From NCBI GenBank assembly GCA_009760855.2, contig WPIO01000058.1:1657501-1721500 (forward strand): DNA of 64,000 nucleotides, in the 5' to 3' direction. A program made the translations under genes and the position numbers. Source of the DNA: Cristatella mucedo. Lineage: Eukaryota; Bryozoa; Phylactolaemata; Cristatellidae. This document shows positions 7,983 to 20,075 of the stretch, in pieces (the stretch's first letter is position 1; each line of letters opens with the position of its first letter). The notes below the pieces were generated by a model. It made no database searches. It had not been told where the DNA came from and was given only the letters and a program-made list of their open reading frames with translations.

Positions 7983-8133
7983 TCAATTTAAAGATTGAAG
8001 CATGTTGGTAAACTTTAGCATGTCAAACATATCAAATCCGTATTCGTTTTTCATAGAATTATAGAAAAACTCTGGAGCGGTGTCCATGAGCCGACGCAAA
8101 GCCACAATGTGGCCGCCGGGGTACCCTGAAAAC
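7983..8133 (-). CDS. Exon 8: second half of SAM domain and stop
   Basis: Encodes residues 640-688, running [32 protein letters not shown] and [12 protein letters not shown] to TGA. Joined to exon 7 it reads KYLDR-FSGY, which completes the SAM fold. The acceptor CTCGTTTCAG is strong. Confidence 0.8.
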
Positions 8134-17100: not shown

Positions 17101-20075
17101 TCACAGGAGCCTAAATGATTGTCACTCACGCTTGATGTGGACAATAATAGATTACATTCTCCACCATTCAAGCAATGGCCGAGACTCCGGGTTACGTAGT
17201 AAAAGACGTTCGCGCCTCCTATCCTAGGTCAACGTGAGCTGCAGAGCCCGAAGCTCGTACAACAACCACAGAAACTCGTGGTTAGCAGAGCTGATGCACC
17301 AGTCTCAGTTTCACTTCTGGGAGCTTTTATCTTCCGGACTAAAGGAAAATGAAAGCATATCGGAGTTAGGAGCACTATTGAACCAGTTTCAGTCTCACTT
17401 TGTTCTTGAGATTTCTCCAAATGATTCTCTTTGCTGTTCCATGTTCTACCTAACAACTTTTTTCGGCGGCTATACTGTTCTGCACGTGCTCGACTGTAAA
17501 ACTCACTCCTGCAATTGCTACTCAACGAAGTCTTCTCTCCTGCTTCCAGCTATGGTGAATCTTTTCCTGAAGTCACGAGCTCCTACTTCGGTGCTACTCA
17601 CTTCCTACGAATTGGCCTCTGGACTCAGCTACGTTCCTCGATTTCTCTTTACTGCATGCGATGGAGTGGATGAGCTACCGTTTACCCACTGAAAGCTGGT
17701 TAAGTTTCAGCGTGGGCGTTAGATAAATAATTTGTGGCTGTTTGGACTTACAAGATGAAGTTACATTAATTGACACCTGCATCCTTCAAGCGCTATGGAA
17801 AAATGGCAACGTGTACCAAGGCAGCATTTGAAACATTTGTCTGATCGGTGTCCCTAAGCGGGTCACAACCGCCAGAAGCTGAAGCAGTAGGCTGCTAAGC
17901 GATGATCACTCACCTTCCATGCAGTCAGCATGTGCTGCAATCCTTGCCCTACTGCTTGCGCTGAAGGCCAAGGTCAACATGCCTTTGCATGCCTCCTTTT
18001 GCTCGTCAACTCGAAATGCTGCTCCTTTGAGTACCTTTGCGTATACTGGCAGAGCACCGTAGGCAACCAGTTTATATTTGTTCGCGTCAGCCGCGGCAAT
18101 TCTGCGCAGGCATTTCATTATCTCCAGTGCTGTGTGCCCGTATTCTTCAGAAAAGTGGTCGCCGCTGTTGCTCCTAAGGCAATCGCCGAAAACGTGTACA
18201 ATAAACTTAACGCTGACATCGATAGAATCGGAAACCTTCTTCTGTTCCTCTTCGCCGAGTATGCAGAAGAAGAGACTTGTGGACAAGGTCTTCACCGAGG
18301 GATCGCCGCTGGACATGTACTTGCTGACGGTCGCCTGCGAGTCGGTTACGATTCGTACCGTCCTTAGGCCGCCGCTCCACGTTTGAATGACGTTGTAGAC
18401 AATTGTCAAGAGGAGCAGCGATATCTGTGGCTGAAACTTGGAGTAGCTTGACGGATGAAAGAGATTAGTGCTCAGGACACTCAGAGCAAACGTGACTGTA
18501 CCGCGATCGACGATTTCCTTTATCGCGATGTCATCTCCATTTTCCGTGCTGGCTATAATGAGCTGCACGAGGTTCTTCCAGTTTCCCACTGCCGCGTCCT
18601 GCTTGCTCTCTAGCTTTGCCCACTGCTTGGCGTGATGAAAGCCGAGTGCTTCCCACGTGACTCTCGTCAGCTCGCAGAGTCCGGCCTGAATGTGGCCGCT
18701 GCACAGCTCGATTCTCCTTGCCAGCTGCCTTTCATCTCTGAGTTCCTCCAGCAGCTCTCTAGAAATGAGAATCGTGCTAGCTACATACGGCTGGCTCGTC
18801 ACTAGACACTTTCCTCCTTCAGACATCAAGGTGCTAAACTCTAGTACATATGCTTACAGGTGAGCTCATAAATGGAACTCGCAGCTTAAATTAGCCTGTA
18901 ATTGTTTGTTCTTTCGTGCGACTATCGATGTCTTGTTGTGCTTTAAATTCTGACTGACGACGACAGAACACACATTTTTCTATGCACTTGACCTACCCTT
19001 AGCTAACTGTACACATCACGAAGACTAAGTAAATGTCAAGCAGTGAAGTAGCATCAATTAGTTCAAACCTTCACAGTAATTCATGCAGATCGAGGTAAGA
19101 GGATTACAGTAGGTGTCAAAGTCAAAGCCGTCTGACTAAATGAAAGCAGAAGTGTATGAAAAGTGAAGCAGAGTAACAGCATTGCCTAGCCGTATCAGAA
19201 ACAACAGCAGACACAAGTCGCGCAGCCCAATTTGTTGAGCTGATTCCACTGTGACCGAACTCGGTTGCAGCAGCCTCTAGCCAGTGTTCAGGAGCAAGGC
19301 AAGCGTGAGAATTGAGATTTCATGCAAGGTATATTTCTGCGGCCACATCTCAGCAGGGTGTAGAAGAGTAAAGCGGAGGCAAACATCAAGAGAAAAGTGA
19401 GAAACAGCTATCACGAATTCGAATGGTGCACTTACGTAAGTCTGCAGTAGGAATAACAACAATTATCTAAATCCTTTATTTTGCCTCGATTTACGTATTC
19501 AGTTAGCATTCCAAAAAGAAGAAGCATTCACTTCTAATGCATGGTTAAGAAAACTGTGTCACGATATAGGAAAATGGTTAGTTTTCTGGATTAGCTACCA
19601 ACAATAAATCAACGGAAGTAGCGCTCTGCATTCTTCTATTTTTTGTTACACAGCAAGATTAACACTTTGAGCAAGCAAAAGCTGGTGACATGCAGCATCC
19701 GGGCAAAATGCAAATGCGAGTGAAATGGTATTGTGCTGAATAGATAGAATATGCCTCGAGCAAGGCATTGACATGTCGATTAAATATAAAATGCATCACT
19801 TATCAGCTTTGAGTAACAAAAATTAAGCTGATGCATAGATAATGAGTTGTGAAGTTTCAAACTGAGATCTACTGAACTTACTGAGTAGTGCTGCTGTACT
19901 CGAATGGATTTGAGACGAAGTCAGTAGCTTCCGCAAAGGCAGCAATGCAGCTCTTCTCCCTCGGACCGTTTGTATTTGGCCCGGCCTCATCTAATGGTCC
20001 GTCAGCGGATGATATTTCTGGGTGGCTTGCAATAGGCGGAAGTACAGGTTTAGCAGAAGGAAGTCCATTGTCCAT
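7983..20075 (-). CDS. ARM-TIR-SAM protein, 8-exon gene model (SARM1-like domain set)
   Basis: Joining the minus-strand segments 20,075-19,882, 18,833-17,914, 15,122-14,970, 14,668-14,558, 14,386-14,285, 13,208-12,996, 8,624-8,402 and 8,133-7,983 gives 2,067 nt, or 688 residues plus TGA. Every junction is GT-AG and phase-compatible (2,1,1,1,1,1,2). Residues about 66-410 are ARM-like helical repeats. The TIR domain is about 424-550: [50 protein letters not shown] Ser/Thr-rich linker follows, then a SAM domain at about 617-688 ([26 protein letters not shown]). E494 sits where NAD-cleaving TIRs have their catalytic glutamate. ARM regions of SARM1 act as regulators and SAMs as oligomerisers; by inference this is a cytosolic signalling or NADase protein. 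The start ATG has an in-frame TAA 9 nt upstream. Less certain: the exon 6 donor (GTGGGT), the weak exon 7 acceptor, and extra untranslated exons. Confidence 0.82.
8402..8624 (-). CDS. Exon 7: linker and first half of SAM domain
   Basis: Encodes residues 566-638. A Ser/Thr/Pro-rich linker is followed by [18 protein letters not shown], the first two helices of a SAM domain. The phase 1 acceptor (GAAAACAG) is pyrimidine-poor, which is the weakest splice site of the model. The donor CG|GTAGGT is good. There is no ATG at its start, so it cannot be a separate first exon of this frame. Confidence 0.75.
8893..9035 (+). mobile_element. SINE S1 (copy S1a), in intron 6
   Basis: The tRNA-like head has a box A-like TAGCCCAGTGGTCAAGG and a box B-like GGGCTTGATCCC. 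It is followed by a tail resembling the LINE A 3' end: GTGAAGCGCC, AGAGATTAAGATCTCT, AGGGTGCTATACAAAT. Antisense to the host gene. Confidence 0.72.
9700..11865 (+). mobile_element. LINE family B, long decayed copy (B2), in intron 6
   Basis: A heavily mutated CR1-like non-LTR element, antisense to the host gene. Recognisable parts are an RT start at 10,415-10,669 ([29 protein letters not shown]), a ruined YADDPQLY at about 10,790-10,840, and [14 protein letters not shown] at about 10,945. The family's C-terminus and 3' end lie at 11,540-11,860. The endonuclease part is absent. Many stops and frameshifts mark it as old. Confidence 0.75.
11870..12990. other. Intron 6, remainder
   Basis: Between LINE B2 and exon 6. 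Open stretches on both strands (12,277-12,501 plus; 13,139-12,588 minus) have no recognisable domain. The minus one is partly a shadow of exon 6. Confidence 0.4.
12996..13208 (-). CDS. Exon 6: TIR domain, C-terminal half
   Basis: Encodes residues 495-564: [36 protein letters not shown] and a final helix. All are typical of the PDGWL class of animal TIRs. The acceptor TTTTTGTAG restores E494. If the donor GAAG|GTGGGT is unused, translation stops two codons later at TGA 12,990-12,988. That gives a SAM-less 566-residue isoform. Confidence 0.82.
14285..14386 (-). CDS. Exon 5: TIR domain, box 2 region
   Basis: Encodes residues 461-493, including [20 protein letters not shown] and SSSCRL. It ends at TTGG|GTAAGA, so the glutamate codon of the CRLEAQYA motif is split between this exon and the next. 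Acceptor TTCCAACAG, phase 1. Confidence 0.85.
14558..14668 (-). CDS. Exon 4: TIR domain, first strand and helix
   Basis: Encodes residues 424-459. It begins DGIRISYH (TIR box 1, first strand) and ends [11 protein letters not shown], the second strand with the conserved MDIE-type turn. It has no ATG of its own. Acceptor ATTTTTTAG, donor A|GTACGT, phase 1 at both ends. Confidence 0.82.
14970..15122 (-). CDS. Exon 3: last ARM-like repeat and Ser-rich linker
   Basis: Encodes residues 373-422 (153 nt, phase 1 at both ends). Joined to exon 2 it reads [20 protein letters not shown], which continues the repeat seamlessly. It ends in a Ser-rich stretch ([14 protein letters not shown]) before the TIR. 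Acceptor CGTTTGTAG; donor CAG|GTTAGA. Confidence 0.8.
15536..15728. repeat. (TA)n microsatellite
   Basis: About 190 bp of almost uninterrupted TA repeats inside intron 2. The YIYI open frames over it are artefacts. Confidence 0.95.
16434..16843 (-). mobile_element. LINE family B, 3' end, reverse orientation (B3), in intron 2
   Basis: The reverse complement matches the family B 3' end and RT C-terminus, the same layout as 42,310-42,880. It is 5'-truncated at about 16,843, exactly where a hairpin palindrome begins. At about 16,597-16,632 it is interrupted by a very short LINE A-type tail. Confidence 0.78.
16594..16633 (+). mobile_element. Minimal LINE A-type tail inserted in B3
   Basis: The sequence cgagggcgctgtaaaaatgg followed by ATT-rich sequence equals the last part of the LINE A/S1 tail. 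It sits inside family B sequence that is continuous in copy B7. It appears to be an extremely 5'-truncated insertion of about 40 bp. Confidence 0.55.
16817..16874. repeat. Perfect 27-bp inverted repeat with 4-nt loop
   Basis: The left arm 16,817-16,843 and right arm 16,848-16,874 are exact reverse complements around TTCC. The left arm is LINE B sequence (also at about 42,655). The right arm is a fold-back copy at the truncated 5' end of B3. It makes a very stable hairpin in intron 2. Confidence 0.95.
17234..17720 (+). mobile_element. LINE family B, decayed 3' part (B4), in intron 2
   Basis: [16 protein letters not shown] resembles the YLAELLHQFQP segment of copy B7. Nucleotides from about 17,490 follow the family B C-terminus and 3' end with many changes. 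The 152-residue open frame here is chance readthrough of this fossil, not a gene. Confidence 0.6.
17914..18833 (-). CDS. Exon 2: armadillo-like repeat region
   Basis: Encodes residues 66-371 after an acceptor TTTAG (phase 2), ending at CATGGAAG|GTGAGT (phase 1). The sequence is helical and Leu/Ala-rich throughout. Late segments such as [15 protein letters not shown] and [20 protein letters not shown] have the spacing of ARM repeats. An internal ATG at 18,826 could be mistaken for the start, but the frame and phase continue from exon 1. Confidence 0.85.
18834..19881 (-). other. Intron 1 of the ARM-TIR-SAM gene
   Basis: 1,048 bp bounded by CA|GTAAGT and TTTAG|C. No repeat or alternative exon is recognised in it. 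Confidence 0.6.
19882..20075 (-). CDS. Exon 1: N-terminal leader
   Basis: Encodes residues 1-64 plus two bases of codon 65, starting [14 protein letters not shown] and ending FEYSSTT. It is Pro/Ser/Ala-rich and probably disordered, with no signal peptide. The donor is strong (CA|GTAAGT, phase 2). An in-frame TAA lies 9 nt before the ATG, and a TTTTTTCAG acceptor-like site about 50 nt upstream suggests a spliced 5' UTR. Confidence 0.72.

Follow-up and report, generated by a model that had tools for sequence, protein, structure and literature searches.

SARM1 is the usual model of a TIR enzyme that is controlled by ARM repeats and assembled by SAM domains. It has NADase activity, forms an octameric ring through its SAMs and is regulated by NAD+ via the ARM. 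Its architecture is ARM-SAM-SAM-TIR and its TIR domain has BB-loop and DWVH motifs of its own, besides an EE-loop motif, H(D/E)YQ (PMC7688312, PMC7075850). Animal ARM-TIR and TIR-SAM proteins are already known. ARM-TIR or ecTIR-DC proteins have been described from oyster, Aplysia, a lucinid clam and a placozoan, and TIR proteins with ARM repeats from choanoflagellates (PMC9334734, PMC4346834, PMC6836662, PMC6321704, PMC6040629). In amphioxus a TIR-SAM hybrid gene (model Brafl1_131196) has been reported, for which a cDNA was recovered (PMC2575513). The 64,000-nucleotide stretch of the Cristatella mucedo genome analyzed here (the window) contains a gene that joins all three domain types in another order, with the TIR in the center and a single SAM at the end.

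An eight-exon gene

All eight minus-strand segments of the gene were confirmed; their donors are GT, their acceptors AG, and the segments fit together in phase. The preliminary description had given an eight-exon GT-AG gene encoding 688 residues, and this product was reproduced exactly when exon 2 was started at 18833 and exon 7 at 8624, the only stop codon being terminal. Paralogs and splice-site scoring nevertheless make 18758 a more likely start of exon 2 than 18833. When all AGs in the window are ranked by score, the acceptor at 18758 reaches percentile 99.5 and that at 18833 percentile 76.1. In all seven paralogs the chosen acceptor is displaced inward by 68-80 nt from the homologue of the 18833-like start, with an offset in copy B (74) identical to that of the window gene. 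Exon 7 more likely begins at 8600 (percentile 89.2) than at the in-frame alternative 8624 (66.8). The revised product has 655 residues.

Exon 1 (19882..20075) encodes an N-terminal leader with a KPVLPPI motif and ends in the donor TCA/GTAAGT (98.2nd percentile); apart from its phase it is supported by a homologous exon in one of the seven paralogs (E 5.6e-6). The ARM-repeat region is encoded by exon 2 (17914..18758, or from 18833 in the 688-residue product), which is supported by its acceptor score and by ARM profiles, and the last ARM-like repeat plus a linker by exon 3 (14970..15122), which has a compatible phase and homologues in seven of seven paralogs at E 8.2e-5 to 0.023. The TIR starts in exon 4 (14558..14668), which runs from ISYHRA to the BB loop MDIEQM, continues through exon 5 (14285..14386) and ends in exon 6 (12996..13208). 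Exons 4 and 5 lie within the TIR_2 match, and the exon 5/6 junction (14285 and 13208-13207) falls inside the codon for the catalytic-type Glu469. A Ser/Thr-rich linker and the first part of the SAM occupy exon 7 (8402..8600) and the rest of the SAM plus the stop codon exon 8 (7983..8133). Upstream of exon 1, outside the gene and on the plus strand, lies a reverse transcriptase fragment (20641..21822; RVT_1, E 1.5e-28). Scanning the window for tRNAs and Rfam families gave no matches.

A family of intact copies in the genome

Seven further intact copies were found in the 572-Mb genome, two on the same contig as the window gene and five clustered on another. A broken ARM fragment interrupted by one TAG and two TAA codons also lies on the contig of the window gene. 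Homologues of exons 2-6 are present in the same order and on the same strand at all seven other intact loci, and homologues of the SAM exons 7 and 8 at six of them. Because exon homologues recur in order at the paralogous loci, the eight-exon gene is more than a chance assembly of open frames. In the two pairs with dS < 1, dN/dS is 0.17/0.81 (copies B and C) and 0.074/0.188 (C550_4 and C550_5), indicating constraint.

Protein database searches with the full product scored 7,999 candidates and gave no match at E up to 0.001. Searches with the TIR region and the ARM exon, both run at E up to 0.1, covered 76 and 2,661 candidates, respectively, and likewise gave none. Animal proteins seem to be sparse in this database, and these null results are therefore no proof that the family is unique. 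No relative was confirmed in scans of viral contigs. Open frames resembling leucine-rich-repeat TIR receptors are also present in the genome, and in the mitochondrial COX1 gene TGA is read as a residue 11 times.

Domain assignment and a proposed mechanism

Profile searches of the spliced protein upheld the TIR assigned in the preliminary description, whereas its ARM and SAM became clear only with family profiles. With the window sequence alone Pfam detected TIR_2 (1.6e-13), a weak SAM (0.03 in the whole protein and 0.0013 in the isolated piece, under the curated cut-off) and no ARM match. When the ARM family profile was compared with solved structures it matched a designed ARM protein (1.3e-23) and Vac8 (1.3e-13). 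With E up to 1 allowed, seven of the eight family members matched Pfam Arm, the best of them at 1.8e-11. A low-confidence single-sequence model of the ARM exon had a mean pLDDT of 44, with mostly helical blocks of 51-77 after residue 200. The SAM family profile matched the SAM domains of liprin-beta-1 (2.2e-5), sphingomyelin synthase (8.1e-4), and SARM1 (1.4e-3). All seven SAM-bearing members matched SAM_3 when E up to 1 was allowed, the best of them at 1.1e-4, and three of the seven SAM pieces also matched Ish1, a non-SAM Pfam family (best 0.0011). TIR_2 was matched in eight of eight copies (best 2.3e-22). Against solved TIRs the TIR family profile gave only weak matches, the best being RPS4, TIR-1, and a CRISPR-associated TIR (E 0.014-0.022), all three of which we take to be NADases. 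The catalytic-type Glu is invariant in the eight copies and aligns with that of TIR-1; conservation of this residue does not predict NADase activity (PMC7075850).

From these sequence features we lean towards a family of TIR proteins of innate immunity, presumably cytosolic, that would be restrained by their ARM repeats and assembled by their SAM domains, with the window copy having become regulatory or neofunctionalised. The SARM1 mechanism serves as the analogy (PMC7688312). The N-terminal ARM solenoid would sense a ligand or partner and keep the central TIR inactive, whereas the C-terminal SAM would probably drive oligomerisation and so assemble the protein, possibly in mixed assemblies with its siblings. 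Upon ARM release adjacent TIRs could pair. Once paired, the TIRs of the seven conventional copies (one of which has no detectable SAM) would either cleave NAD+ or form an innate-immunity signalling platform.

It is possible, although we doubt it, that the family instead consists of non-enzymatic adaptors whose TIRs would act as scaffolds, making homotypic contacts with other TIRs, and that none of the copies has NADase activity. The invariant Glu argues against such adaptors, as do the structure matches to presumed NADases, weak as these are. In their favor, the Trp/His motif that precedes the Glu in SARM1 is missing, and in the 2020 TIR survey (PMC7075850) SARM1 was the only animal TIR with known NADase activity. 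Moreover, adaptor or regulator roles have been hypothesised for the invertebrate "evolutionarily conserved TIR-domain-containing" proteins (PMC6321704, PMC6836662).

The remodelled TIR of the window copy

The TIR of the window copy breaks 18 columns that are invariant in the other seven copies (each of the others has 0-3 such unique departures of its own), with the BB loop as the center of change. It lacks the BB-loop core W-I-D..M-S-G-S-T as well as the Trp that follows the first strand, and it retains the catalytic-type Glu. In relative-rate tests of the TIR the window copy had 27-30 changes versus 4-8 in the sibling (chi2 10.3-19.9; the five tests share most branches and are not independent), and its TIR branch is 0.74 compared with ~0.14 in sibling B. 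Outside the TIR, comparison with sibling B shows no significant acceleration of the window copy (chi2 0.0-3.1 in the ARM and 0.1-2.9 in the SAM). As judged by these comparisons, the fast change in the window copy is shown to fall mainly in the TIR around the active-site loop, with the ARM and SAM evolving at normal pace. The ARM has 9 unique departures (others 0-3), and the acceleration is therefore not perfectly confined to the TIR.

This TIR-specific acceleration, as the alignments demonstrate it, is the new finding of the present analysis, and with a single copy in hand the departure from the siblings would have been invisible. The window copy is likely a non-canonical or regulatory member of the family. 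In terms of the model favored above, its TIR pairing or catalysis would most likely be impaired, which would leave it a regulatory or neofunctionalised role. A more specific version, which we regard as unlikely but conceivable, is that a tandemly expanding immune family with an inverted SARM1 layout has converted one copy into a "pseudo-TIR" that would use its unchanged SAM to enter the assemblies of its siblings and would block or tune their TIR activity. A copy with mainly its TIR remodelled would be a natural experiment in how pseudo-TIRs regulate in animals.

The departures in the TIR, including the BB-loop residues, and those in the ARM would also be expected if the window copy were a decaying gene, its TIR degrading under relaxed selection and its protein without a role, and the broken ARM fragment on the same contig fits such a history. 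However, all eight exons are open, every splice site is canonical, and the ARM and SAM show no significant acceleration relative to sibling B. Decay should hit the flanking domains too; as these are spared, decay is disfavored and we consider it improbable.

The SAM exons and the separation from SARM1

Exons 6 and 7 are 4.4 kb apart, and in paralog C_C539b SAM exons were not detected in ~22 kb downstream (to C539:1805999), as might be expected if the ARM-TIR gene stopped after exon 6 and the SAM exons belonged to a neighboring gene. At six of the seven paralogous loci, however, the SAM exons lie 3' of the TIR exons on the same strand, with compatible phases and a homologous stop, and we therefore rejected a separate SAM gene as very improbable. 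The exon 8 homologues in these six paralogs are firm (E 1.9e-15 to 1.5e-5); those of exon 7 are firm in three (4.3e-4, 0.003, and 2.3e-5) and weak by themselves in the other three (0.15-0.22). Moreover, nearly half of the 4.4-kb intron is a dispersed repeat of about 2 kb (9844..11855). It aligns at 69% identity, over 2,027 columns, with sequence close to paralog C, and it is also matched near two of the C550 copies. The distinct ARM/TIR/SAM lineage suggested earlier, with a central TIR and a single terminal SAM, is thus borne out by seven of the eight intact copies, including that in the window.

The alternative offered with it, a rearranged relative of SARM1, did not survive. A separate TIR exon of SARM1 type lies on another contig of the genome (C665:1138797-1139006; E 1.0e-19, 57% identity with a TIR-1 fragment). 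DWVH is present in this exon, and 3.3 kb upstream of it a SAM exon lies on the same strand. Instead of the SARM1 BB loop E(R/K)LEAG, the motif given in PMC7075850, the window copy has EQMTCH and the other seven have E(Q/K/S)M(S/K/T)GS, and in place of the Trp/His ahead of the Glu (DWVHKE) stand SSSCRLE and S(S/P)xCR(L/S)E, respectively. An orthologue whose TIR had moved between the ARM and a single SAM would account for the three domain types common to both and for the comparatively good match between the SARM1 SAM and the SAM profile, but the SARM1 SAM is outscored by the liprin and sphingomyelin-synthase SAMs, and given the separate gene and the missing motifs we rejected such an orthologue as scarcely credible.

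Comparison with known systems

The family and SARM1/TIR-1 have the same domain types, an N-terminal ARM, and a catalytic-type glutamate, which is invariant in the eight copies and aligned with that of TIR-1. They differ in that SARM1 has tandem SAMs between the ARM and a C-terminal TIR, whereas in the window gene and six of the seven paralogs the TIR precedes a single SAM. Because the three parts occur here in another arrangement, beside a SARM1-type gene, nature offers a test of the features required, and the question arises of whether linking a restraint to a TIR and an assembler is enough whatever their order. The ARM-TIR-SAM order was not found in the literature searched, outside which lie the TIR surveys of Gerdol 2017 and of Poole and Weis 2014, and an earlier description is possible.

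Like the ARM-TIR and ecTIR-DC proteins, of which Aplysia has several copies in its genome, the window gene combines ARM-type repeats with a TIR, the repeats lying upstream of the TIR within one gene. In contrast, a C-terminal SAM is not among the features given for those proteins in the accounts cited above, and the lucinid clam ecTIR-DC family 6 protein is described with a Death domain and two TIRs in its stead. The terminal domain has profile similarity to SAM domains, and amphioxus Brafl1_131196 likewise combines a TIR and a SAM in one expressed protein, although the portion of its description used for this comparison, which is by description only, mentions no ARM repeats. By taxonomy and by the missing group-24 motifs, a likely home of such a TIR would be group 18 of the TIR survey, the architecturally diverse TIRs of lower metazoans and protozoans (PMC7075850).

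The gene model and its product

The preliminary description had joined eight minus-strand segments (7983..20075) by GT-AG splicing into one 688-residue protein. All eight segments were present with GT-AG borders and compatible phases, and that product was reproduced with exon 2 starting at 18833 and exon 7 at 8624. In all seven intact paralogs, the exon 2 acceptor chosen was 68-80 nt inward of the homologue of that exon 2 start, and the window site at 18758 has an offset of 74, equal to that of copy B, a paralog on the same contig. Splice sites were scored with a matrix for which the seven paralogs supplied 47 acceptors and 41 donors; acceptors are given as percentiles of the window AGs. 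Site 18758 was at 99.5 versus 76.1 for 18833, the exon 7 acceptor at 8600 scored 89.2 versus 66.8 for 8624, and the seven donors scored 91.4-99.8. The revised product (exon 2 from 18758, exon 7 from 8600) has 655 residues: an N-terminal leader, an ARM region from residue 66, a TIR at about residues 398-528, a Ser/Thr-rich linker and a SAM at about residues 583-655. The exon 5/6 junction falls within the Glu469 codon.

Between exons 6 and 7, about 2 kb of the 4.4-kb intron is a dispersed repeat. Long simple repeats are found at 6806-7176, (AGACAG)n with 62 copies, and within intron 2 at 15536-15728, (AT)n with 96 copies. Four stretches (2384-3538, 20651-22222, 28926-31541 and 33104-35251) are copies of a retrotransposon family: the same repeats recur near the paralogs at 67-93% identity, and one stretch carries a reverse transcriptase match.

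A paralogous family

The genome assembly (G000; 572 Mb, 688 contigs) was searched with the ARM exon, which matched nine places. Besides the window, these are two intact copies that share its contig (B and C_C539b), a further five on contig C550, and a fragment (C539:1804882-1805388, L017). The fragment has three stops, one TAG and two TAA, and is apparently a decayed family member. The SAM piece (E up to 1) likewise hit nine places. Two are the exons of the window itself, a third is on its contig, and the C550 cluster contains five more (E 0.0012-0.27). The ninth, on C33 (E 0.54), was rejected as a family member, as it overlaps a SAM_2 match (1.5e-8) and is the SAM of another gene.

Using tblastn, exons 2-6 were located in order on a single strand in all seven intact paralogous loci, exons 7 and 8 in six and exon 1 in one. 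The exon 8 matches are firm (E 1.9e-15 to 1.5e-5) and those of exon 7 by themselves are weak in C550_1, C550_2 and C550_3 (E 0.15-0.22). Most paralog borders have a canonical splice site of the expected phase at the homologous position. As the script took same-phase sites only, independent evidence comes from the presence of canonical sites at these positions and not from their agreement in phase. Sites were poor or ambiguous at the C550_1 exon 6 donor and the C550_4 and C550_5 exon 7 acceptors. Among copies, the position shifts by some codons for the exon 3 and exon 6 donors and for the exon 7 acceptors. The seven models translate with no internal stops, and all six SAM-bearing paralogs stop at the homologous place after the SAM. 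No SAM exons of C_C539b were seen up to C539:1805999. Pairwise identities in the family range from 29 to 86%. The five C550 copies lie on one strand within about 156 kb (C550:12693870-12849408), two being 86% identical, and the cluster suggests recent tandem duplication.

Elsewhere in the assembly, a COX1 frame (C688:15615-16955) has 11 in-frame TGA codons and no TAA or TAG, as in an animal-type mitochondrial code; five partial matches are on four other contigs.

Domain assignment

Of the three domains first proposed, Pfam on the window sequence alone supported the TIR firmly (TIR_2, E 1.6e-13) and the SAM weakly (E 0.03; 0.0013 for the SAM piece, under the Pfam cut-off), and had no match for the ARM. 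The single sequence thus left the domain call unsettled. The family gives an ARM-TIR-SAM architecture. Among the best 60 of 129 matches to solved structures (E up to 10), the ARM profile of eight members matched a designed ARM protein (1.3e-23) and Vac8 (1.3e-13), and Pfam Arm matched seven of the eight members. The SAM profile (seven members) matched liprin-beta-1 (2.2e-5), sphingomyelin synthase (8.1e-4) and SARM1 (1.4e-3). At E up to 1 (the one member with scores listed lies under the curated cut-offs), the SAM pieces matched SAM_3 (7/7), SAM_1 (six), SAM_2 (five) and also Ish1 (three). TIR_2 matched all eight members; the TIR profile matched solved structures weakly, the best being RPS4 (0.014) and the SARM1-type TIR-1 (0.018).

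The altered TIR of the window copy

The window-copy TIR keeps a catalytic-type Glu and departs at 18 columns common to the other seven copies, each of which has 0-3 such departures. These include W11R just past the first strand and V31P, W32R, I33M, G40C, S41H, T42S and L43P in or around the BB loop, as labeled by alignment rather than structure. Unique departures number nine in the ARM region (0-3 in other copies) and one in the SAM (0-1). In relative-rate tests of the window copy versus B, with each of the five C550 copies as outgroup (five tests that are not independent), the TIR counts were 27-30 versus 4-8 (chi2 10.3-19.9), the ARM counts 24-34 versus 21-34 (chi2 0.0-3.1) and the SAM counts 5-8 versus 4-12 (chi2 0.1-2.9). 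The acceleration is specific to the TIR. Trees agree, with window and B branches of 0.74 and about 0.14 for the TIR and 0.71 and about 0.47 for the ARM region.

The TIR change could reflect either positive selection or relaxation, as whole-protein dS is not computable for the window copy; dS was below 1 only in the pairs B-C and C550_4-C550_5, both with dN < dS. The exons are open, the splice sites good and the rates of ARM and SAM normal, all of which speaks against simple decay.

Relation to known TIR proteins

ARM-TIR proteins are listed for Aplysia and oyster and TIR with ARM for choanoflagellates (PMC9334734, PMC4346834 and PMC6040629). For a clam, an ARM-Death-TIR-TIR protein is described (PMC6836662), for amphioxus a TIR-SAM protein with cDNA support (PMC2575513) and for a placozoan eight ecTIR-DC proteins (PMC6321704). 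The two-domain combinations ARM-TIR and TIR-SAM are already known; no description of the ARM-TIR-SAM order was found in the literature searched, the literal term included and the main survey excluded. In the same genome, a 406-residue open frame with TIR_2 and SAM_2 matches (C299:1748101-1748763, L007) marks a separate TIR-SAM gene of another kind. Open frames on C233 and C22 (L006 and L008) look by eye like Toll-like receptors, in which leucine-rich repeats and a membrane segment accompany a TIR.

A TIR-1 fragment used as genome query found one TIR exon (C665:1138797-1139006, E 1.0e-19) that encodes a SARM1-type BB loop, EKLTAG, and DWVH. On the same strand as this exon and 3.3 kb upstream of it is a SAM_2 match (C665:1135358-1135483, E 4.0e-4). 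The exon and the SAM match reveal a SARM1-type gene, SAM before TIR, separate from the ARM-TIR-SAM family.

In SARM1, the ARM restrains, the SAMs hold an octamer and the freed TIRs pair and cleave NAD+ (PMC7688312). The ARM-TIR-SAM family may do the same three jobs in another order, with the SAM at the tail. As BB-loop residues matter for SARM1 catalysis (PMC7075850) and the BB loop of the window copy is changed, the likeliest consequence would be impaired or altered activity of this copy, which might still have a role through co-assembly with its siblings. According to the same paper, the conserved Glu by itself is no proof of NADase activity, and the SARM1 group is marked by a C-terminal TIR with tandem SAMs, a BB loop of the form E(R/K)LEAG, and Trp/His preceding the Glu. 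In contrast, the ARM-TIR-SAM family lacks the C-terminal TIR and tandem SAMs, the E(R/K)LEAG loop and the Trp/His ahead of the Glu, and would resemble SARM1 in its working by analogy only.
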